Positions 3,135-36,560 of a stretch of 42,229 nucleotides of DNA are shown here, piece by piece. The stretch's first letter is position 1. Each line of letters starts with the position of its first letter. Location of the stretch: positions 1-42,229 of IMG/VR virus record IMGVR_UViG_3300020156_000049. One strand, 5' to 3'. This stretch comes from a virus. The position numbers and the translations under genes are program-made. Under the pieces are notes generated by a model, which was not told where the DNA came from, did not search any database, and saw only the letters and a program-made list of their open reading frames with translations.

Positions 3135-3356
3135 ATGGACATTCGGACTTGGGTCAACGACCACCCTAAAGGTCAACGCAACCGGGCAATCGAGCAGCTT
3201 GCGGCAGAGGCCGGCGTTACTCCGGGCGCAGTCCGCCACTGGGTTTCCGGGCTACGCAAGCCACGGCTCTGCCATCTGACCGCGATTGAGAAGGCCACCG
3301 GCATTCCGATGGCAGACCTTTTGAAGCAGGCGCTAGAGGACTCACGGGCCGCCTAG
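3135..3356 (+). CDS. cro: Cro-like repressor
   Basis: The 73-residue protein is a small YdaS/Cro-type DNA-binding protein. It contains a helix-turn-helix around AIEQLAAEAGVTPGAVRHWV, followed by GLRKP and a wing-like helix with LTAIEKATGIPMADLL. It is transcribed away from the repressor gene across the shared operators, as Cro is. No clear Shine-Dalgarno sequence precedes the ATG, so the mRNA may be nearly leaderless. It is expected to switch off the repressor promoter and favour lytic growth. Confidence 0.85.
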   Translation: MDIRTWVNDHPKGQRNRAIEQLAAEAGVTPGAVRHWVSGLRKPRLCHLTAIEKATGIPMADLLKQALEDSRAA

Positions 3357-6494: not shown

Positions 6495-7765
6495 GCAACG
6501 TTACCCCGATCTTTGCGGAAGAGGCCGTTCTCGGCGGCCTGCTGCTGGACAACCTGCGCTACCACGACATAGCCCCGGTTGTTTCGGCGGAGCAGTTCAC
6601 CAGCCCCGACCGGCGCGCGATGTTCGCCGCAATCCGCGACCGGGTGCTGGCCGGCGAGCCGGCGGATGCGGTCACCATCGGCGAAGCGCACCCCGAGCTG
6701 TTTGAAGAGGCCGTAAGCCTCGCCAGTAGCGTTCCAGGCGCGTCGCAGGTGCTGGCCTATGCCACCCTAGTGCGTGGCAATTGGCGTCGCCGAGAAGCGC
6801 ACCAGATCGCCCTAACGTTGCAGTCCGAAGCGAGGGCGGGCGACGAGGGCGCGGTTGATCGGGCAATCGCCTCCCTGCTGAACCTCAACGCGGCGGTTAC
6901 CGAGTGCGAGTACACCGGCAAGCAGGCCCTGCAACTGGCTTGGCGCGAGGTGGAGGCCACACATGCGAACGGTGGCAGGCTTCCCGGGGTCAGCACTGGC
7001 ATCGCCGAGCTTGATGAAATTCTCGGTGGGTGGCACAGCTCCGATCTGACCATCATCGGCGCCCGTCCCGCGATGGGCAAAACGGCCTTCATGGGTTGCA
7101 TCGCGGAGGCTGCGGCGGAGGCTAGTGCACGACCCGGGGTCATTTCGGCCGAACAGCCGGCGATACAGCTGGCGCTTCGTCGTATGTCCATGGTGTCCAA
7201 GGTCGCGGCCGTGAAGCTGCGCTCAGGCAAGTTTGAGGAAGAGGATTGGAGCAGCCTCCAAGCTGGCATGTCCAAGGCCATCCCGCGGGACATGTGGATA
7301 TACGACCGGTCTGCGGTGACCCTTGATGAGCTGGTTGGCGTCGCACGGAAGTGGCGTCACAGCCACGGCATCGGCTGCCTGTTTATCGACTACGCACAGC
7401 GCATCACGGTGCCTGGTGCAGATCGCATCACAGAGGTGGCTCAGGTGGCCCGCGGCCTCAAGAACCTGGCCCGGGACTTACAGATTCCGGTGATCTCTCT
7501 GGCCCAGGTGGTGAAGGGAGTGGATCAGCGCACGGATAAGCGGCCGACGGCTGGCGACCTTGCCAATTCCGACGAGCTGACCCGAGAGGCTGACCAAATC
7601 CTGATGTTGTACCGGGATGAGGTTTACAACCCGGAATCCCCCGACAGGGGCATTGCGGAAATCCTGGTCGAGAAGAACCGGCACGGCCCCACCGGCTACA
7701 AGCGCGTGAGGTTTGACGGCGAAACGATGCGCTTCTTGAGTCTGAGCAAAGACACGGGTTTCTGA
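6491..7765 (+). CDS. DnaB-like replicative helicase
   Basis: The 424-residue protein has a DnaB N-terminal domain (AEEAVLGGLLLD, residues about 9-100) and a RecA-type helicase core. Walker A is GARPAMGKT (residues 190-198) and Walker B is LFIDYAQ (Asp300), followed by SLAQV and a C-terminal GxxxIxxxKNRHGP motif (ILVEKNRHGPTG). It is a hexameric 5'-3' helicase that would be loaded at the phage origin. The GTG start overlaps the upstream stop (GTGA). No separate loader gene was recognised, so the O-like protein may recruit it. Confidence 0.93.
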   Translation: MSNVTPIFAEEAVLGGLLLDNLRYHDIAPVVSAEQFTSPDRRAMFAAIRDRVLAGEPADAVTIGEAHPELFEEAVSLASSVPGASQVLAYATLVRGNWRRREAHQIALTLQSEARAGDEGAVDRAIASLLNLNAAVTECEYTGKQALQLAWREVEATHANGGRLPGVSTGIAELDEILGGWHSSDLTIIGARPAMGKTAFMGCIAEAAAEASARPGVISAEQPAIQLALRRMSMVSKVAAVKLRSGKFEEEDWSSLQAGMSKAIPRDMWIYDRSAVTLDELVGVARKWRHSHGIGCLFIDYAQRITVPGADRITEVAQVARGLKNLARDLQIPVISLAQVVKGVDQRTDKRPTAGDLANSDELTREADQILMLYRDEVYNPESPDRGIAEILVEKNRHGPTGYKRVRFDGETMRFLSLSKDTGF

Positions 7766-7954
7766 GTGGAATGGAAATGGCCCGGTGGCAAGTACATCCA
7801 CACAACCGACATGCGGTTCTTCATCTGCAAGTCGAAGCTGGGTGATTTGTGGGTCTACACGCTGGCGGATGGGCAGCAGTTGGTCTGCTCGGAGCGGGGC
7901 GAGGGTGCGCTGGAGCGGTGTAAGGAAATTGCAGAGGAACGGAGTAGGGCATGA
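7766..7954 (+). CDS. Small hypothetical protein
   Basis: The 62-residue protein (MEWKWPGGKYIHTTDMRFF) is beta-rich, starts at GTG 7766 immediately after the helicase stop, and overlaps ninB by 4 bases. The function is unknown. Confidence 0.6.
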   Translation: MEWKWPGGKYIHTTDMRFFICKSKLGDLWVYTLADGQQLVCSERGEGALERCKEIAEERSRA

Positions 7955-8313
7955 ACGAAATATTTGATCCCAAGCGCACGTTGGACCAAAACCGTTTGCT
8001 TTGGCCCCTCTTGCGTGATTTCGCCCAGCAAATCCCTTGGCACCACACCGAGAACGGCAAGTGGGTGTTGGGCCCGATGCAAGCGGCGTCATGGAAGGCG
8101 GTGCTGACCGCGGCATTCGAGCGTGAAACGGAGATGGCAGCAGGCATTGACGGCGGCCAGGTGATGGTCGGCGCCAGCACGAGCAACTACGGAATTCGCA
8201 AGATGGCCGACTTCCTGAACTTCATGTACGCACAGGGCAACGAGATGGGCGTGCAGTGGTCGCGGAAGTCTGAGGAATCAATCGCCCAAGTGGCGGGGAG
8301 GAAAGCAGCGTGA
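7951..8313 (+). CDS. ninB: NinB-like recombination protein
   Basis: The 120-residue protein has the NinB signature: an LDQNRLLWPLLRDFAQQ start, a region with SWKAVLTAAFE, and a C-terminal segment with STSNYGIRKMADFLNFMYA. NinB (Orf of lambda) binds single-stranded DNA and SSB and assists annealing by Bet, replacing host RecFOR functions. It opens a nin-like block of small nucleic-acid genes, all joined by ATGA/GTGA overlaps. Length is close to that of lambda Orf (146). Confidence 0.85.
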   Translation: MNEIFDPKRTLDQNRLLWPLLRDFAQQIPWHHTENGKWVLGPMQAASWKAVLTAAFERETEMAAGIDGGQVMVGASTSNYGIRKMADFLNFMYAQGNEMGVQWSRKSEESIAQVAGRKAA

Positions 8314-8486
8314 ACTTCAAACTTTACTCTGTGCGCGCTAAGTACGCGGAGCAGATCAATGCGGGGTACTCGGCGGCGCTGATGGGGTTCCCGAGGGACG
8401 TGAACCCATACCGAGACGAACAGGGTCTGGCATTCAACCATGGCTACGACCTGGCCGAGCGAGACATTCGCGGGGAGGTTGCGTGA
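8310..8486 (+). CDS. Small nin-region protein
   Basis: A 58-residue frame opens at GTG 8310 in a GTGA overlap with ninB and closes at 8486 in another GTGA overlap. It reads NFKLYSVRAKYAEQINAG and later AFNHGYDLAERDIRG. The C-terminal GYDLAERD resembles other short phage proteins of the nin region. The tight coupling supports it. Confidence 0.6.
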   Translation: MNFKLYSVRAKYAEQINAGYSAALMGFPRDVNPYRDEQGLAFNHGYDLAERDIRGEVA

Positions 8487-8773
8487 GTCGGTTCTTTGTG
8501 GGGCAGAGGGTGCGGGTGAAGTACGTTAAGAACCCCTGCAACTCGTACCTTGTCGGGCAAGAGGGGCGAATCACGGAGGTCCAGGACTTCACGAACTACG
8601 GCGGGTATGTGGGCTATGGCCTAGACATACAGCCCATCTCTCTAGACGGGTCACAGGGATGGATTGCGTTCTCTGGCGATCAGCTTGAGCCGATCCTCCC
8701 CTCCGGCCACCAGCCGAGCGAATACACCTTCGACAAGCTGATGGACGAACTGCGTAGCGGGGTGGCGGCATGA
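8483..8773 (+). CDS. Small KOW/SH3-like protein
   Basis: The 96-residue protein starts FVGQRVRVKYVKNP and continues NSYLVGQEGRITEVQDF, a pattern like KOW or SH3-type barrels, then has SGDQLEPI. The GTG start is in a GTGA overlap. A nucleic-acid binding role is possible but not shown. Confidence 0.65.
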   Translation: MSRFFVGQRVRVKYVKNPCNSYLVGQEGRITEVQDFTNYGGYVGYGLDIQPISLDGSQGWIAFSGDQLEPILPSGHQPSEYTFDKLMDELRSGVAA

Positions 8774-8991
8774 GCCAATGGCTACCCATCGAATACGCCC
8801 CCAAAGATGGGCGGTACCTGATGCTGTGGGACGGGAAGCACGTTTCGCGCGGCTCATGGCGAGAAGACGCCTTCATGGATGATGAGGGGCCGTTGTGGCT
8901 GAGGGATGACTACGACGACTTCTCAACCGGGTATGCCAGCACGCCTCTACGCCCCACCCACTGGTTCGATCTGCCGGAGCCACCGAAATGA
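8770..8991 (+). CDS. DUF551-like small protein
   Basis: The 73-residue protein has the recurring phage pattern WLPIEYAPKDGRYLMLW, a middle GxW segment and the ending PTHWFDLPEPP, which resembles DUF551. The function is unknown. It starts in an ATGA overlap and ends in another. Confidence 0.75.
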   Translation: MSQWLPIEYAPKDGRYLMLWDGKHVSRGSWREDAFMDDEGPLWLRDDYDDFSTGYASTPLRPTHWFDLPEPPK

Positions 8992-9440
8992 GGCGCACGA
9001 TTCGTCCGGCTAACAAGCTGGAGGCTGCGTATCAGGAGGCGGCCCGTGGCCTTGGTTGCGTCATCTGCCGCCACCTGATGGAGATTGGCCGACTGAGCCC
9101 GAAGGCGGGACAGTGCGGTGCCACGCGGATTCACCACCGAAACATGGGCGACCTGCATGGGCAGAAGCAGCTCGGGCAACACGCGGTTGTGGCGCTAGGA
9201 GATTGGCACCACGACGGAATTCCCCCGATGTTCTGGGGCGACGCCGAGGCAGAAGGAATCTACGGGCCATCGTTCAAGTTCGCTAAGCCATTCCGTGCAT
9301 GGACAGCCGAGCTGTTCCCTGAGATCCCGGGCCGTGGCACTGAGGTTTGGCAGGCGGTACAGGACCGGATGCTGATCGAACAAGGGTTCGGCGATCTGGT
9401 GGATGCAGTACGGGACCAACAAATCAAGGATGCGGCATGA
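8988..9440 (+). CDS. Ref-like RecA-dependent HNH nuclease
   Basis: The 150-residue protein shows GCVICRHL, then CGATRIHHRN and ALGDWHHDGIPP. Such Cys and His pairs are typical of the P1 Ref / NinX-type RecA-dependent nuclease family, which cuts DNA in RecA-made displacement loops. Neighbouring ninB and the resolvase-like gene fit a recombination role. P1 Ref is longer (186 residues); here the N-terminal disordered part is short. Confidence 0.75.
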   Translation: MRRTIRPANKLEAAYQEAARGLGCVICRHLMEIGRLSPKAGQCGATRIHHRNMGDLHGQKQLGQHAVVALGDWHHDGIPPMFWGDAEAEGIYGPSFKFAKPFRAWTAELFPEIPGRGTEVWQAVQDRMLIEQGFGDLVDAVRDQQIKDAA

Positions 9441-9685
9441 AACTTGAAAAGCAGACAGAGAATTTCAAGGATACCGAGTGTCGTTTCAAGAAGCCGGATT
9501 GGTTGGATGCTCCGGAGTGGGCAAGGTATCTCGCCCAAGACGGTGACGGCGAATGGTGGTGGTTCGAGTTCAAGCCGGTGCCGAATCACCATATTTCGAG
9601 TTGGTGCCGGGAGAGCCCGGAGCATCGTTATGACTTCGCGGGGACTACCTGCCCACCAATCGGCCCGATGGAGCGCAGGCCATGA
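9437..9685 (+). CDS. Small hypothetical protein, nin-like block
   Basis: The 82-residue protein is aromatic and acidic (GDGEWWWFEFKPVPNHH) with two cysteines near the end. It starts in an ATGA overlap at 9437 and ends in one at 9682. No family was recognised. Confidence 0.6.
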   Translation: MKLEKQTENFKDTECRFKKPDWLDAPEWARYLAQDGDGEWWWFEFKPVPNHHISSWCRESPEHRYDFAGTTCPPIGPMERRP

Positions 9686-10107
9686 GCGGGGCATATTCGC
9701 GGGCCAAGGGCGCCCGGGCTGAGCTGGAGCTGTGTCACCTGCTGAGCGAGTACCTGGGCGTGACGCTCAATCGGAATTACAAGCAGGCCGCCCAAGCCCA
9801 GCACGGGGACATTGAACAGCTGGTTGGTCCTTACCTGATCGAGTGCAAGAACCAAGCAAAGATCACGCTTGGCCCGTGGTGGGAGCAGGCGAGGCTTGCC
9901 GCACTCAAGCGCGGGGCGCTTCCCTGCGTGGCGTACCGGCTGCCGAATCGTGGCTTGTACGACCGCTGGCGCTTCGTGGTCCCGCTCAATGAGGCGTGGC
10001 GCACCGGGCAGGATTGGCGAGACACGTTCCGCTACACGGCGGATGTGGGGCTTGAGGGGTTCGCGCTGCTGGTGCGCGAGGGGATGACTGAGAAGGCGGC
10101 GGCATAG
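9682..10107 (+). CDS. Holliday-junction-resolvase-like PD-(D/E)XK nuclease
   Basis: The 141-residue protein has the arrangement of Hjc-type resolvases: a Glu in GARAELELCHLL, an Asp in HGDIEQL, and the E-x-K pair in YLIECKNQAK, followed by a helix with WWEQARLAALKRG. In lambdoid nin regions this place is often held by RusA or Rap, so it may resolve branched DNA before packaging. A different PD-(D/E)XK nuclease activity cannot be excluded. Confidence 0.75.
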   Translation: MSGAYSRAKGARAELELCHLLSEYLGVTLNRNYKQAAQAQHGDIEQLVGPYLIECKNQAKITLGPWWEQARLAALKRGALPCVAYRLPNRGLYDRWRFVVPLNEAWRTGQDWRDTFRYTADVGLEGFALLVREGMTEKAAA

Positions 10108-30275: not shown

Positions 30276-32078
30276 ATGGCAGCGATTCTTTCGCCGAGCG
30301 CGAAGCAGCAGTTTTTTACCGATGCGGGTTTGCCCGCCGCTGGGTACAAGCTCCACACCTACGCGGCCAACACCACCACGCCCCAAGCGACCTACGCCAA
30401 CCGGGCTGGTACGGTACCCAACGCCAACCCGATCATCCTTAATTCGCGTGGCGAGGCGACCATCTACCTGACTCCGGGGCTGGTCTACGACTACCAGTTC
30501 GTGTCGCCTGACGGCGCCCAGGTGTGGACGCAGGAAGACGTGATCGCCGATGCCGGGGACGCCAACTCGGTCGTCTTCACGCAATCCGGTACCGGCGCGG
30601 TCCAGCGCTCAGTGCTGGACAAGCTGCGCGAGACGGTGAGCATCAAGGACTACGGAGCATTGGGCAACGGGGTTGCCGATGATCTGCCGGCGTTCACCGC
30701 AGCAATCAACTACCTTCAGTCCATTGGTGGCGGTCGCCTGTACCTGCCAGCTGGAAACTACAAGGTGAGCGCGTCCATTAATCTGTCCAGCGCCGATTAC
30801 CTATGGATCGACGGAGCCGGCCAGGACAACACCACCGTTATCACTAGTTCTGCGACGGCGGATGTTTTCTACTCCAATAGCGACCGCAAGTACCGTAAGT
30901 TCTCAAACTTCACCGTTTCCAGCAGCGTCACCAAGACTGCGGGGGCTTGCTTCAATCTGCTCATGGAGCGGCGAAGCGTATTTGCGGACCTGAAAGTCAC
31001 CAAGTGGTTCGATGGCGTGATCTTGCGCGGCTTTGAGGAAACGGAGCTGCAACGAGTCAAAATCGTCAATCCTACGGGGGCAGGCACTGCCCTGGTTGCC
31101 GGCACCGCTGGCTCTGCTGGATCGGGGGCTAATCTTCATGTAACCGGATGCTTCATCCGCGGCAACGATGACATTGCACAGACCGCCCCCGTCGCGAATT
31201 GGGGAATCCAGGCTTACGATATCGACGCACTGTACATGATTGATGTGGATGTTGGCGCATTCCTGCTAGGGGATATGCGAATCGCACCTACCTCTCGTGC
31301 TGCAAACTTCCACTTCACTACATGCTTTTTCGACGCAACTAAGGGGACGCACTGCGTAACCGTGGAGGGCGCGGGTAGCAAGTCGCAGTGGGGCATCACG
31401 AATTGCTGGTTCTCTTCGGCGGGGAAGTTGACGGGCGGCAGCGCAGAATCCTGCGGTCTCTTCCTCGCCGACCAAGGGGGATACTCTGGTATCCAGTTCA
31501 CGGGCTGCCGGTTCTATAACAACTCGGCTAGCGGCGCCTATCAGGGAAAGGCCGGCTCCGTTCAATTCACGGGGTGTTCTTTTGAGGCCAACGGGACTGC
31601 GGCTGCCGGTGATCGTTATGGCTTCAAGTTCAACCCCAGCGTCGCAGTTGGACCCGGTGCGCTGCTTTGCGGTTGCTTCTTCTCTGGCAATGCCCCCAAG
31701 GCCATCCAGACGACGGCCAATGCCCGCGAGTTGGTGTTGGAGGGCTGCATCCTCGACAACGGCATGGACTATGTTGAGGGGACGATCTTGCGAGCCAAGT
31801 CCGCAGACAAGGTGACGAACTCAGTACCTTCTGCGACCCGCTTGGCGCCCTCGCCATGCCATGACTTCATTCGGGTGACGGGGACGACAAACATTGCAGG
31901 AATCAACGTGACCTACGTCGGTCACAGGCTCACGATGAAGTTTGACAACATCCTCACTGTGATTGACGGGTCGCAAAATCTGTCACTGGCCGGCAACCTT
32001 GCCACCGCAGCCGGGTCAATCCTGACGCTATGCTGCGATGGCGCCACATGGTGGGAAGTCGGTCGTGTAACGACCTAG
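30276..32078 (+). CDS. Tailspike with pectate-lyase-type beta-helix
   Basis: The 600-residue protein has an N-terminal adaptor domain (AILSPSAKQQFFTDAGLPAA through LVYDYQFVSPDG, residues 1-100) that would bind it to the tail. After it comes the Pectate_lyase_3 signature VSIKDYGALGNGVADDLPAF with GGGRLYLPAGNYKV. The long rest is built of short beta strands rich in small, polar and cysteine residues, as in right-handed beta-helices. It is expected to bind and probably cleave a host surface polysaccharide. The start follows AGGAG. Confidence 0.88.
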   Translation: MAAILSPSAKQQFFTDAGLPAAGYKLHTYAANTTTPQATYANRAGTVPNANPIILNSRGEATIYLTPGLVYDYQFVSPDGAQVWTQEDVIADAGDANSVVFTQSGTGAVQRSVLDKLRETVSIKDYGALGNGVADDLPAFTAAINYLQSIGGGRLYLPAGNYKVSASINLSSADYLWIDGAGQDNTTVITSSATADVFYSNSDRKYRKFSNFTVSSSVTKTAGACFNLLMERRSVFADLKVTKWFDGVILRGFEETELQRVKIVNPTGAGTALVAGTAGSAGSGANLHVTGCFIRGNDDIAQTAPVANWGIQAYDIDALYMIDVDVGAFLLGDMRIAPTSRAANFHFTTCFFDATKGTHCVTVEGAGSKSQWGITNCWFSSAGKLTGGSAESCGLFLADQGGYSGIQFTGCRFYNNSASGAYQGKAGSVQFTGCSFEANGTAAAGDRYGFKFNPSVAVGPGALLCGCFFSGNAPKAIQTTANARELVLEGCILDNGMDYVEGTILRAKSADKVTNSVPSATRLAPSPCHDFIRVTGTTNIAGINVTYVGHRLTMKFDNILTVIDGSQNLSLAGNLATAAGSILTLCCDGATWWEVGRVTT

Positions 32079-33457
32079 AACTGGAAGTAGATGAACGGAT
32101 TAAACCCGTTCTCTACTACCGAAATGCACGCAAGAAGATAAATCACGAGGCAGCAGGCCGAAGCCAGCATAGGGGTGGACACCCAACGCTTCGCGCGCTC
32201 GTAAGCGGCTTGCCCGACCAGACAGGCAGCCGCTGCGATAACCAAGATGGCGATGACCTTAGGGTCGGCTAGCATCCGGTTGGCATCCGTCCAAGCGGGC
32301 GATCCGACCCCCATCATGGCCTTCAAGAAGCGGATGGTTGTTTCCAGATCTTTTGACCGGAAGGGAACCCACAACACAGTGACAAGTAGGAAAGTCCACA
32401 GCCGCGCGCCAGGCAGGGATTCCGTGCGCAATATGCGTGCTCTCTCCAAGACAAGAAGCAGTCCGTGCGCCAAGCCCCACAGCAAGAACGTGTAGGCAGC
32501 ACCATGCCAGAGCCCGCAGAGGACGAAGACGATAACCAGATTCAGGTAAGTCTGGTGCGGGCCAGCGCGATTGCCTCCCAGTGGGATGTACACATAATCG
32601 CGGAACCACCGGGACAGCGTCATGTGCCAGCGCCGCCAGAATTCGGTGATGCTCGCTGCCGTGTAGGGGCGGTTGAAGTTCTGCGGGAACTGGAACCCCA
32701 TCATGGCGGCCAGGCCAATTGCCATGTCGGTGTAGCCAGAGAAGTCAAAGTAAATTTGGAACGAGTAGCAAAGCGCCGCCAGCCACGCTGAGTAAGTGGT
32801 GAGCTGTAGGGCGTCACCGTGAACCGCGTCAACCACTGCTCCAAGTGGGTCAGCAATCAAGATCTTCTTGGACAGACCCACGATGAAAAGGATCAGACCC
32901 CAGAAGACGGCATCGCTGACCGCTCGTCGGCGCTGGTTCGGGAGCTGGGAGTGGATTTCCGAGTAGCGGACGATGGGGCCCGCCACGAGGTGTGGGAACA
33001 GGAATATATAGATCGCGAATTTTGCAATGCTGCGTTCTGGCTTCAGGCTGCCGTGATAAACGTCAACCAGGTAGGAAATGAAGTGGAAGCTGTAGAAGGA
33101 AATGCCAAGCGGCAGAACCCAGCTCAACTTGCTGGCATCAAAGTCGATGCCTGTCAGGTCTGAGGTGATGCGCGCAATGAAGCCGCTGTACTTGAACAGT
33201 AGCAGCGGCGTGAGGTTTAGCGCGATGCCCAGCCACAGCAAAGGCTTGCGTCGCGAGCGGGTCAGCAGGTGGCCCAGCCACCAGTTCAGCGCCACAAGCG
33301 CCAGCGGAATAAGGGTGAAGGGCCCCGCACCCAGGGCGTAGAACACCACACTGGACAGAAGTATCCAGCCGTTGCGTACGGCGACTGGGAGCAGGAAGTA
33401 CAGCCCGAAGAAGAGCGGCAGGAAAAGAAACAGGAAGGCTGGAGACGAGAAGACCAT
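32075..33457 (-). CDS. AlgI-like MBOAT O-acyltransferase
   Basis: The 460-residue protein begins MVFSSPAFLFLFLPLFFGLY, has some ten or more hydrophobic segments, and carries the MBOAT motifs FPHLVAGPIVRY, QIYFDFSGYTDMAIG, FWRRWHMTLSRWFRDYVYIP and CGLWHGAAYTFLLWG with the invariant His. Proteins of this kind pass acetyl groups across the membrane to a partner that modifies exopolysaccharide (AlgI with AlgJ/AlgX). The partner gene is directly upstream with a TAATG overlap. The stop codon overlaps the tailspike stop from the other strand. Base composition seems a little lower in GC than the neighbours by eye. Confidence 0.9.
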   Translation of the reverse strand: MVFSSPAFLFLFLPLFFGLYFLLPVAVRNGWILLSSVVFYALGAGPFTLIPLALVALNWWLGHLLTRSRRKPLLWLGIALNLTPLLLFKYSGFIARITSDLTGIDFDASKLSWVLPLGISFYSFHFISYLVDVYHGSLKPERSIAKFAIYIFLFPHLVAGPIVRYSEIHSQLPNQRRRAVSDAVFWGLILFIVGLSKKILIADPLGAVVDAVHGDALQLTTYSAWLAALCYSFQIYFDFSGYTDMAIGLAAMMGFQFPQNFNRPYTAASITEFWRRWHMTLSRWFRDYVYIPLGGNRAGPHQTYLNLVIVFVLCGLWHGAAYTFLLWGLAHGLLLVLERARILRTESLPGARLWTFLLVTVLWVPFRSKDLETTIRFLKAMMGVGSPAWTDANRMLADPKVIAILVIAAAACLVGQAAYERAKRWVSTPMLASACCLVIYLLACISVVENGFNPFIYFQF

Positions 33458-34605
33458 TAGCGTCCGTGCTTGTCTGAGGCGAGGGCGGCCCACTCCGGCG
33501 AAATGTCCAGGAGTTGAACGACGAGGTATTTGCAGCGGCCTTTCGTGACCTTGGGCAAATCCCATATTGGGATATCTCTGCCCACCCTAGCCATGCTGGA
33601 GAAGTGGTTTAGCAGGCCAACGCTGACCATCGCGTCCGAAAAGCTGTTTCCGTAGAGGCACGTTGAGGGCAGCATTCCCGAGGCCGTGACCTCATCGGTA
33701 ACGTACTCAAGGCCAGTGGCTGATACATCCTGATAGTTGATGTTGTGCACTGCCGGCCACTTGCGATTGTCTACGCGCACCTCCGCCACTGGTTCGGCGA
33801 CAAGGAGCGCCGCAAAGCGAGCGTCGCTGCCAACTTCGTTCTCGGTATAGGTTTCAAGTGGGTAGCGCCACTGAAACGGCACGCCATCGAGCGTCGCGAT
33901 CCGCCCGGCAATCTGGATCGACGCCTCCCGGGCGGCAAAGTCACTCCAGTGGAAGTCTTGTTTGAAAAACCTGGGCTGCCCCTTTGGGATGGCATTCATC
34001 AGGGCGTGGGCGTCAATGAAATCCGATCCAAGCTCCCTTTGCAGCTGCGGGTAGAGCCGAGACATAAACTGCGACGGCTCGGTCATGTGCGGCGCAAAGA
34101 ACGGTAGACCCGCCTGGGTGAAATGCTGCCGTTGCATCGGCGCGATAAGGATCAGGTGCGTGCCCTGCGATTCAAGCTGAGCGCGCAGCAGACGCAGGCC
34201 CCCTACAACTGCTGGCGCTTCGTTCTCGAACAGGTGCTCGCTAGTCGGTAGCTGCGAATCAAGCAACTTCCTTCCGTAGATTTCACCATGTGGGCCAAAG
34301 TAGGCGCGGTCGGATGAGCTGAATAGCCAATAGTCCAGCTGGTTCTTCAAGCGAACCATTAGGCTGCGATAGGCCATATTGTCGTTGAACCACCGGTCGA
34401 AGGCCGCGAAGTTCTTATCGAAGTCCCAAGGCTTGCCCTCCCATCTGGTGGGCAATTCAGCCAGGCGCCGCATTTCCTCAACCCTCTCGAAGTCGGGTGG
34501 TGGCGTGCGTAGACTAAGCGCGGCCGGAAGGGCGCTCAGGATTAGAATGAAGGCGACGAAGCCTGCTTTTAGGGCCGTCGATGGCCTGTGGTGTTCCGCG
34601 ATCAA
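33457..34605 (-). CDS. AlgJ/AlgX-like SGNH O-acetyltransferase
   Basis: The 382-residue protein has an N-terminal membrane anchor (about residues 12-32), then PPDFERVEEM, a DRAYFGPHGEIYGRK segment typical of the AlgJ/AlgX family, the catalytic DFHWSD pair (Asp217, His219) and YGNSFSD with Ser321 as nucleophile. It would act in the periplasm, taking acetyl groups from the MBOAT partner. The best start is TTG 34605 behind GGGAGGGG; longer upstream frames would run across a divergent gene. Confidence 0.85.
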   Translation of the reverse strand: MIAEHHRPSTALKAGFVAFILILSALPAALSLRTPPPDFERVEEMRRLAELPTRWEGKPWDFDKNFAAFDRWFNDNMAYRSLMVRLKNQLDYWLFSSSDRAYFGPHGEIYGRKLLDSQLPTSEHLFENEAPAVVGGLRLLRAQLESQGTHLILIAPMQRQHFTQAGLPFFAPHMTEPSQFMSRLYPQLQRELGSDFIDAHALMNAIPKGQPRFFKQDFHWSDFAAREASIQIAGRIATLDGVPFQWRYPLETYTENEVGSDARFAALLVAEPVAEVRVDNRKWPAVHNINYQDVSATGLEYVTDEVTASGMLPSTCLYGNSFSDAMVSVGLLNHFSSMARVGRDIPIWDLPKVTKGRCKYLVVQLLDISPEWAALASDKHGR

Positions 34606-34657
34606 TGCGTCCCCTCCCTTTGACAAGTATGTTAAACGACATGAGGGGGGTGACGTA

Positions 34658-34951
34658 ATGCCTCTGCCCGAAGGCTTCCATTGGGTCCAAGGCCACCAGC
34701 ACGAGAAGGGGCCACCTACTGCGCTGGCCCTCGGTGATGTGCAGGTCGCCCGCATGCTCGACCGGCTGGACGGCTCGTGGTTCGTGCGCTTGGAGTGCCA
34801 GAAGCCGAAGAGCCACCCACTGGTGACCCGCGACTGCACGAGCTTTGAGCAGGGCAGGGCGGGAACCGAGGAATGGGCCCGCAGGAACGAGGCCAGACTG
34901 CGAGCCGAGGCGGCTGCCGCGGTCGCTGGGCGGCGGAAAGATAAGGTGTAG
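34658..34951 (+). CDS. Hypothetical protein next to the integrase gene
   Basis: The 97-residue protein reads PLPEGFHWVQGHQHEKGPPT and later ALALGDVQVARMLDRLDGSW, and ends in an Ala/Arg-rich helix. It starts at ATG 34658 after a run of six G. It is divergent from the acetyltransferase pair (52-base gap) and convergent with int (3-base gap). No family was recognised. Confidence 0.65.
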   Translation: MPLPEGFHWVQGHQHEKGPPTALALGDVQVARMLDRLDGSWFVRLECQKPKSHPLVTRDCTSFEQGRAGTEEWARRNEARLRAEAAAAVAGRRKDKV

Positions 34952-34954
34952 CCC

Positions 34955-35917
34955 CTATAGCCGGTCGGCGAGCTCGTCCGCGCTGGTCTGATAATAGATA
35001 AGGAGACTCTTGAGGTCTCTGTGGCCGATCACCCTGGCGAGCTCCATAACGTCGAGTTTCTTGGAAAGGCGCCAAATGGCCTCGGCCCGGGTGTCGTGGA
35101 AGTGTAGGTCAGGAATCTTGGTGTCCTGAACCACCCGGCGCCAGAACACGTCCCGGGTTCCCGGGTTCAGGCCGAATGCCGGCCCATCGGTCTTGGGGAG
35201 GACCGCCAGAATCTCCCGGGCTCGTGGAGAAAGCGGCACCCTGCGCTCATCGCCATTCTTGGTTCGCGGCAGGCGGACGGACTTTTCGCTCACGTCTGGC
35301 CAAGTGATGCCCATGATCTCGCCTGCCCGCATTGCGGTCTCTAGGGCAAAGAGGAACGCCAAACCGACCCGGTTCATCGCCGTTCCCGCGGTCAGCCCAT
35401 CCCCCAGCCTTGTAGCAATCACCACCCGTGCCACCTCGGCCTCTGAGATTCGCCGTTTGCGGCTTGGGGGCGACCTGGGCGGCTTCACGTCGGCCATAGG
35501 GTTTGACCTCAGCCAGTGCCATTCCTTCCAGGCCACGCGCAGCACGGAGCGCATCAGGGTCATTTCCCGGGCCACTGTCCCGGGCGACACGTCCTGTAGG
35601 CGGCTCTCCCGCCACGCCACGAAATCCGGGGCAGCCAACTTGGCAAGGGGGCGCTTGGCGATCTTCTCAGCTTGGAGGCTCGCCAGCCGAACTAGCTCCC
35701 ACTTCGCCCCCCGGTGGCCCGGGGCAACGTCCTTGGCGTACCGCTTCAGCGCGTCCCCAAAAGAGTGATCCGGTAGCTTGCCGCCGCCCAGTTCTGATTC
35801 GCGCTGTAGCGCCCACTGGACAGCCTCCTGCTTCGTGCGGAAAGTGTCACTCTCGCGCAGGCCGTTCTTGTAGACCTCGGCCCGCCATTTCGTCCCACGC
35901 TTACGTATCGATGGCAT
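34955..35917 (-). CDS. int: Tyrosine recombinase integrase
   Basis: The 320-residue protein has an N-terminal arm-binding region (PSIRKRGTKWRAEVYKNGLR), a core-binding domain and the catalytic domain. The catalytic residues are visible in ALETAMRAGEI (Arg), RTKNGDERRVPL (Lys), LHFHDTRAEAIW (His and Arg), VIGHRDL (His) and LIYYQTSADEL (Tyr). It inserts and excises the prophage. I start it at ATG 35917; a longer frame to 36091 would read through the candidate attP region. Confidence 0.92.
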   Translation of the reverse strand: MPSIRKRGTKWRAEVYKNGLRESDTFRTKQEAVQWALQRESELGGGKLPDHSFGDALKRYAKDVAPGHRGAKWELVRLASLQAEKIAKRPLAKLAAPDFVAWRESRLQDVSPGTVAREMTLMRSVLRVAWKEWHWLRSNPMADVKPPRSPPSRKRRISEAEVARVVIATRLGDGLTAGTAMNRVGLAFLFALETAMRAGEIMGITWPDVSEKSVRLPRTKNGDERRVPLSPRAREILAVLPKTDGPAFGLNPGTRDVFWRRVVQDTKIPDLHFHDTRAEAIWRLSKKLDVMELARVIGHRDLKSLLIYYQTSADELADRL

Positions 35918-36142: not shown

Positions 36143-36376
36143 TTACGCCGCGTTCTGGCGGTTTCGCTCCGCTTCCCACCAGTCCATGAGCTCGCGGCGG
36201 CGCCACGTCAGCCGGCGCCCCATCTTGGCTGGCTTCGGGAACCCGGGCCGCGCAGCGATCTGCTGGAACGTCCGGACGGGCACCCCGAGACACATGGCAG
36301 CCGATTCCATGCCCAGCGCCCGGTCCCCCTCGATCAGCGCCGCAAGCGCTGCCAGCGTGTGGTCAACCTCAGCCAT
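36143..36376 (-). CDS. xis: AlpA-like excisionase
   Basis: The 77-residue protein has a helix-turn-helix of the AlpA/MerR-like excisionase type: GMESAAMCLGVPVRTFQQIA, then GFPKPAKMGRRLTWRRREL and the ending DWWEAERN. These proteins direct integrase towards excision. It is upstream of int across the candidate attP region. ATG 36376 or the in-frame ATG 36388 could start it; I prefer 36376. It overlaps the upstream gene by 8 bases. Confidence 0.8.
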   Translation of the reverse strand: MAEVDHTLAALAALIEGDRALGMESAAMCLGVPVRTFQQIAARPGFPKPAKMGRRLTWRRRELMDWWEAERNRQNAA

Positions 36377-36560
36377 CGCCCCCCCCATTCAACTCATCCG
36401 CCATCTCATGCGCAGCCGAGCTGTTGAGCGTGATCCATTTGGCTCCGGGGGATTTCTCGTAGTAGTTCCCCGCATCGTCCACGAGGCACCAGCCGGCGCG
36501 CTCGGGCGGCCTGTCGGTGAACAACTCGATCAACTGCTCTTTGACATGCCACTTGTTCAT
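36369..36560 (-). CDS. Small hypothetical protein upstream of xis
   Basis: The 63-residue protein (MNKWHVKEQLIELFTDRPPE) has a perfect AGGAGG eight bases before ATG 36560. It contains GWCLVDDAGNYYEKSPGAKW and ends with a helical segment. It is co-translated with xis through an 8-base overlap. The function is unknown. Confidence 0.65.
   Translation of the reverse strand: MNKWHVKEQLIELFTDRPPERAGWCLVDDAGNYYEKSPGAKWITLNSSAAHEMADELNGGGDG

Follow-up and report, generated by a model that had tools for sequence, protein, structure and literature searches.

Lysogenic-conversion modules beside a tailspike are a known kind of phage locus, and several described systems resemble the one analyzed here, which lies in a 42,229-base IMG/VR virus record (IMGVR_UViG_3300020156_000049; the window, hereafter). 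The oac locus of Sf6 (NC_005344) has the identical order and orientation of spike (+), O-antigen acetylase (-) and integrase (-), but contains a single acetylase gene, whereas in the window an MBOAT and an SGNH protein are encoded separately and a 97-aa ORF precedes the integrase. In P22 (NC_002371), the gtrABC conversion operon similarly lies between the tailspike and attP/int and is convergent with the spike (spike>, <gtrCBA, <int), although it serves glucosylation rather than acylation. JBD44 (gp41/gp40/gp39, NC_030929) and the viral contig L026 carry an MBOAT and an ALGX-domain protein convergent with the spike gene; they differ from the window in gene order (MBOAT then SGNH), in sequence (MBOAT ~40% and SGNH ~19% identical to ours) and in backbone (siphophage or Ab31-like podophage), and the two pairs were probably acquired independently. 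In YA3, Ab31 and PAShipCat1, the slot beside the spike holds an O-antigen acetylase which travels with the receptor-binding part (RBD) of that spike; it is one fused AT3-SGNH protein, in contrast to the MBOAT plus SGNH of the window, and MBOAT is structurally unrelated to AT3 (PMC12423673). The alginate system (AlgI/AlgJ/AlgX/AlgF) also combines an MBOAT with a permuted SGNH O-acetyltransferase, but the window has neither AlgF nor alginate genes alongside, its neighbours being a phage spike and the 97-aa ORF/integrase. The closest sequences, in the same gene order, belong to pairs in Massilia (L003-L005) and in the viral locus L018, which differ in having no spike or integrase beside them in the stretches read. 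What is new in the window is the two-component MBOAT/SGNH form of the module; no paper on a phage MBOAT/SGNH pair was found in the literature searched, the coverage of which was incomplete.

The receptor of JBD44 is the O-antigen; with the mutation N289K in its spike gp39, plaques no longer have halos, for which the authors suspect a lost LPS depolymerase activity (PMC9112912). D3 Oac acetylates the O-antigen fucosamine and prevents phage binding (PMC11436027), and the YA3 authors had earlier proposed serotype conversion from the position of the acetylase near attP (PMC7326022). Among E. coli phages, spike RBDs are exchanged between genera, and the region downstream of the spike gene is poorly conserved in Lederbergviruses and Uetakeviruses (PMC10408124). 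Acinetobacter prophages carry a Wzy gene not far from that of a depolymerase spike, and the same idea of exclusion that we consider below has been put forward (PMC13228068).

An MBOAT/SGNH gene pair convergent with a tailspike

The features of the locus are as follows.

30276-32078, + strand: tailspike, whole gene, 600 aa (Pfam and PHROG tail-spike matches)
30276..30700, + strand: tailspike N-terminal anchor, ~aa 1-142 (GC near the genome mean; homology to relatives' spikes)
30701..32078, + strand: tailspike RBD, right-handed beta-helix, pectate-lyase-like (Pfam/PHROGs; low GC)
32075..33457, - strand: MBOAT membrane O-acyltransferase (AlgI/PatA/DltB type), 460 aa (PF03062, DltB PDB match, His278/His318)
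33457..34605, - strand: predicted AlgX/AlgJ-type SGNH O-acetyltransferase, 382 aa, one N-terminal membrane helix (PF16822, AF2 fold)
34606..34657, no strand: divergent intergenic stretch upstream of the pair (weak evidence)
34658..34951, + strand: small ORF, 97 aa (32% identity, E 6e-4, to the ORF directly after the spike in relative G003)
34955..35917, - strand: tyrosine integrase (PF00589 5.4e-15, phrog_1 1.2e-49)
36143..36388, - strand: excisionase/MerR-like small DNA-binding protein (phrog_66 6.8e-6)

The virion module is short-tailed-phage-like (terminase 16801, portal 18126, head protein 21638, ejection protein 28417), and the window also contains a DnaD/DnaB-like replication pair. Judging from the tyrosine integrase (whose listed ORF extends to 36091, with a TTG start) and the excisionase-like gene, the phage is very probably temperate. 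Attempts at host assignment were unsuccessful: they found no tRNA genes in the window and no match of its integrase among relatives, and the capsid protein had a single distant match (33%) across 369 genomes from the class to which Massilia belongs.

The tailspike was recognized by Pfam (Pect-lyase_RHGA_epim 3.5e-12, Beta_helix 3.1e-9) and had numerous PHROG tail-spike matches. Its residues 1-200 match at 42-55% the spikes of phages with a common virion module, the C-termini of which differ; in the relatives G003, G005 and G006, which have this module, the likeness is limited to the first ~200 residues, and searches with the spike C-terminus (aa 200-600), IMG/VR included, found no close homologue.

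The sequence-only reading had described a coupled MBOAT and SGNH operon convergent with the tailspike, and both its coordinates and its structure were confirmed. The SGNH stop and the MBOAT start (true start, ATG 33457) overlap as TAATG, the pair being translationally coupled with the SGNH gene (start TTG 34605, behind GGGAGGGG) upstream in the operon, and the 3' ends of MBOAT and spike overlap by 4 bp. Both reading frames are open and keep their catalytic motifs. The MBOAT matched PF03062 at 4.9e-33 (115.3 bits, curated cut-off 27) and a solved DltB in the PDB at 8.4e-28, and the histidines of its RWH (H278) and WHG (H318) motifs are both invariant across the alignment. The SGNH protein matched PF16822 (ALGX) at 2.6e-11 (44.1 bits, cut-off 26.5). 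Its DxHW (217-220; D217, H219) and GNS (319-321; S321) motifs are in circularly permuted order, with D217-H219 before S321, and such an order (DxH before the GxS serine) is a feature of the AlgX/AlgJ family (PMC9487903). An AF2 prediction of its structure was moderately confident (mean pLDDT 66.7) and had P. putida AlgJ (4o8v, E 1.8e-7) as best fold match, followed in order by a DHHW protein, B. cereus PatB1 and P. aeruginosa AlgX; phmmer found no match to the protein in the PDB and tblastn none in the phage collection. The AT3 domain (PF01757; Sf6 Oac/OafB type) is absent, MBOAT being the only one of these two acyltransferase families that Pfam returned; the YA3 control returned AT3 and SGNH.

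In the AlgI/AlgJ, PatA/PatB and DltB/DltD systems, an acyl group crosses the inner membrane by way of the MBOAT and is then placed on a glycan by the SGNH protein. By analogy, the MBOAT of the window presumably passes acetyl across the inner membrane and its partner presumably transfers this acetyl to a glycan in the periplasm; we infer acetyl as the group transferred and the ligand of the spike as the acceptor.

Gene layout and a low-GC segment spanning RBD and enzymes

The order in the window is spike (+), MBOAT-SGNH pair (-), 97-aa ORF (+) and int (-), with genes of glycan-modifying type placed between tailspike and int and on the int strand, as in the Sf6 and P22 conversion modules. This arrangement bears on whether the pair acts in the lysogen at all, or is instead switched on in the infected cell, where it would hide the receptor on that dying cell and on its debris, saving progeny. 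Lysogenic expression is proven by neither the strand position nor the promoter scan, which found no consensus promoter upstream of the pair; however, the pair is opposite in strand to the late genes and oriented with int, as are oac in Sf6 and gtr in P22, which carry their own annotated promoters, and a lytic-phase function appears very improbable.

The SGNH gene and the 97-aa ORF diverge from a 52-bp gap, in which we observed an imperfect dyad (TTTGACA-N4-TGTTAAA, 34619-34636); since it occurs only once in the window, its reading as a repressor operator is unsupported. Since the 97-aa ORF weakly resembles the ORF found 3' of the spike in G003, the pair seems to have been inserted between spike and ORF, and the latter may be the original downstream neighbour of the spike, displaced by the cassette. 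No MBOAT was detected in G003, G005 and G006, some records of which are possibly incomplete; G006 has a GIY-YIG-like gene between spike and int.

A maximum-likelihood scan placed the strongest low-GC segment of the genome at 30701-34645 (57.7% vs 61.4%), comprising the spike RBD, the MBOAT and the SGNH gene. Its first base falls at about spike residue 142, close to where anchor and RBD meet, and its last 40 bp upstream of the SGNH start; GC is 61.8% in the spike anchor, 57.5% in the RBD, 57.8% in the MBOAT, 58.3% in the SGNH gene and 63.9% in the integrase. The score was equalled in 0 to 1.3% of 300 block-shuffled genomes, depending on block size, and is moderately significant (0.013) under the coarsest shuffling. 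Base composition fits an import of RBD and enzymes as one unit, like that seen in Pseudomonas phages.

Joint transfer of RBD and enzyme in Pseudomonas phages

In a first RBD-enzyme combination (RBD-A with MBOAT/SGNH), JBD44-type siphophages and the podophage L026 have in common 4745 bp containing the MBOAT and SGNH genes together with the C-terminal portion of the spike (L026:16-4760, L032:1174-5918), a block which runs to the end of the L026 contig, so that only its spike-side boundary is defined in L026. Identity to L026 over this block is 98.8% for L032 and 97.9% for L027 (= JBD44). The anchors of the L026 and JBD44-type spikes are unrelated (22%), while their C-terminal 380 residues are 99% identical; L026 is an Ab31-like podophage with a backbone 98% identical to MPK9 and YA3. 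In a second combination (RBD-B with the AT3-SGNH O-antigen acetylase), siphophage PAShipCat1 and podophage YA3 have 3589 bp in common (98.9%), with RBD-B 98% identical and unrelated anchors (16%). RBD-B also accompanies the AT3 enzyme in Ab31 and in Flu_PA14_4, the anchor of which is apparently different.

The enzyme class follows the RBD on both anchor types. On the podophage anchor, this is seen in L026 versus YA3/Ab31; on the siphophage anchor, the neighbour is MBOAT/SGNH in JBD44, AT3 in PAShipCat1, a Wzy-like polymerase in phi297 and PP9W, a repeat-unit polymerase (as annotated) in BUCT566 and a C5-epimerase in CF23a. Comparison with other phages points to the tip of the spike and its modifying enzyme moving together, as one exchangeable unit. 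These loci also bear on the possibility that a PatA/PatB-like pair O-acetylates peptidoglycan and shields the lysogen wall from lysozyme or from endolysins of rival phages, with no relation to the spike. Such a role would accord with PatB1 among the SGNH fold matches, although B. cereus PatB1 acetylates a secondary wall polymer (PMC9487903), and with the name peptidoglycan O-acetyltransferase given by its depositors to the Ab31 enzyme in the same slot. It predicts, however, neither O-antigen polymerase-like partners in this slot nor joint transfer with the RBD, and Pfam and the best fold match both point to AlgX/AlgJ, which makes peptidoglycan a quite unlikely target.

Three of these loci showed further particularities. 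In CF23a, a D3-like phage, the protein adjoining the spike gene (L050:2266-3948) has a D-glucuronyl C5-epimerase C-terminal domain. Just upstream of the YA3 acetylase gene (L041 ~3247-3306) lies a short match to the start of a siphophage endolysin (MPITEQQLL...), with a counterpart at L026:345-404; it has the appearance of a scar left by the transfer of the cassette from a siphophage, and both stretches contain a TATGAT-like promoter sequence. In HB2107-3I (L042:4436-5269), the AT3-SGNH acetylase is reduced to its SGNH half while the spike RBD is intact, possibly a natural loss of function.

MBOAT pairs recur beside spike genes

Direct IMG/VR searches with the SGNH protein, the MBOAT and the spike C-terminus of the window gave no close relative, and profile-based searches were needed. 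With an MBOAT profile, 20 viral loci were obtained, and in 14 of them the MBOAT-plus-partner pair directly abuts a spike or fibre gene (11/17 after collapsing near-identical contigs); these loci are phylogenetically non-independent and we claim no p-value for the adjacency. Spike neighbours were assigned by PHROGs or by near-identity to PHROG-checked loci. The pair is adjacent and convergent in 13 loci (L019, L021, L024, L025, L026, L027, L029, L030, L031, L032, L033, L035 and L037), and follows the spike on the same strand in L036. It does not adjoin a spike in L018, L023 and L034; in L020, L022 and L028 adjacency is unclear or the spike is one to two genes off. Partners are not always ALGX proteins, those of L031, L035 and L036 having no Pfam match, and an integrase was detected in 10 of the 20 records. 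The sequence-only reading had called a two-part system unusual in phage: such systems are indeed little described, but they are present in at least 15 viral contigs, for instance as JBD44 gp41/gp40.

The SGNH-then-MBOAT order of the window recurs in the Massilia chromosomes (L003-L005) and in the P2-like L018 (MBOAT 55-60% and SGNH 38-40% identical to ours), so the pair is not a chance reading. L018, the closest viral relative of the window pair, carries it at 7196-9858, between replication and portal genes and away from any spike. From phage to phage, MBOATs are better conserved than their SGNH partners (e.g., 78/43% for L021/L024) while RBDs are unrelated. Recognition of the acceptor by the SGNH part would lead to such a pattern, which we regard as suggestive only. 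Two loci had unusual structures, L019 with two MBOAT-plus-partner pairs in tandem next to a single spike gene (L019:7195-12643), and L037 with an MBOAT split in two ORFs (L037:1881-3318) that is intact in its close relative L035.

The pair could alternatively be cargo of the attachment site, that is, host genes for polysaccharide acetylation which were acquired beside int, act as a moron in general fitness or biofilm formation and have nothing to do with the spike ligand. Its location between spike and int, the Massilia homologues in the same order, the GIY-YIG gene at the same place in G006 and the different location of the P2-like L018 pair would all be compatible with this. However, MBOAT pairs adjoin the spike end even where int is not a neighbour (JBD44, L019, L029), the boundaries of shared blocks fall inside the spike gene, and the GC block takes in the RBD, and we consider unlinked cargo unlikely.

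Discussion

The best-supported explanation, to which we give a probability of about 0.72, is a lysogenic-conversion cassette coupled to the tailspike, with RBD and enzyme inherited and exchanged as a single unit. Acetyl taken from acetyl-CoA in the cytoplasm would be carried through the inner membrane by the MBOAT and handed to the membrane-anchored SGNH protein, and the latter would O-acetylate a surface polysaccharide before or during its export. This polymer is most likely the O-antigen, possibly capsule, and could be another glycan. Once acetylated, it would be a poor ligand or substrate for the phage's own spike; lysogens would exclude siblings with the same receptor and change serotype, and virions, once released, may also avoid binding to modified cells and debris. 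In this scheme we infer the acetyl group, the identity of the glycan, lysogenic expression and exclusion.

Four observations support the suggestion, made from the sequence, that the pair modifies the polysaccharide to which the neighbouring spike binds: the Sf6/P22 layout, the recurrent spike adjacency of MBOAT pairs, the joint transfer in two RBD-enzyme pairs and the GC block of the window. The O-antigen receptor and halo-less gp39 mutant of JBD44, together with the blocking by D3 Oac, also count in favour of the cassette. Against it count the lack of a promoter in our scan and of a close homologue of the RBD in our searches, G003, G005 and G006 without the pair, the pairs away from a spike in L018 and L023, the value of 0.013 for the GC block under the coarsest shuffling, and the chromosomal Massilia pairs, which show that such enzymes can serve other polysaccharides.

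More generally, we find it fairly probable that temperate phages exchange, from one virion backbone to another unrelated to it, a single stretch of DNA encoding a spike RBD and the enzyme by which the receptor of that RBD is afterwards hidden. Each domain would be matched by its own class of enzyme (MBOAT/SGNH, AT3-SGNH, Wzy or C5-epimerase), and the window would be such a cassette of the two-component MBOAT/SGNH type. Serotype conversion would thereby extend to a separate enzyme class, an MBOAT plus an SGNH partner, and our data indicate that the receptor recognised by a temperate phage and the later masking of that receptor are inherited as one unit. If this is true, sequence alone would allow one to predict how receptors change in lysogens, how phages group by superinfection immunity and how serotypes shift.
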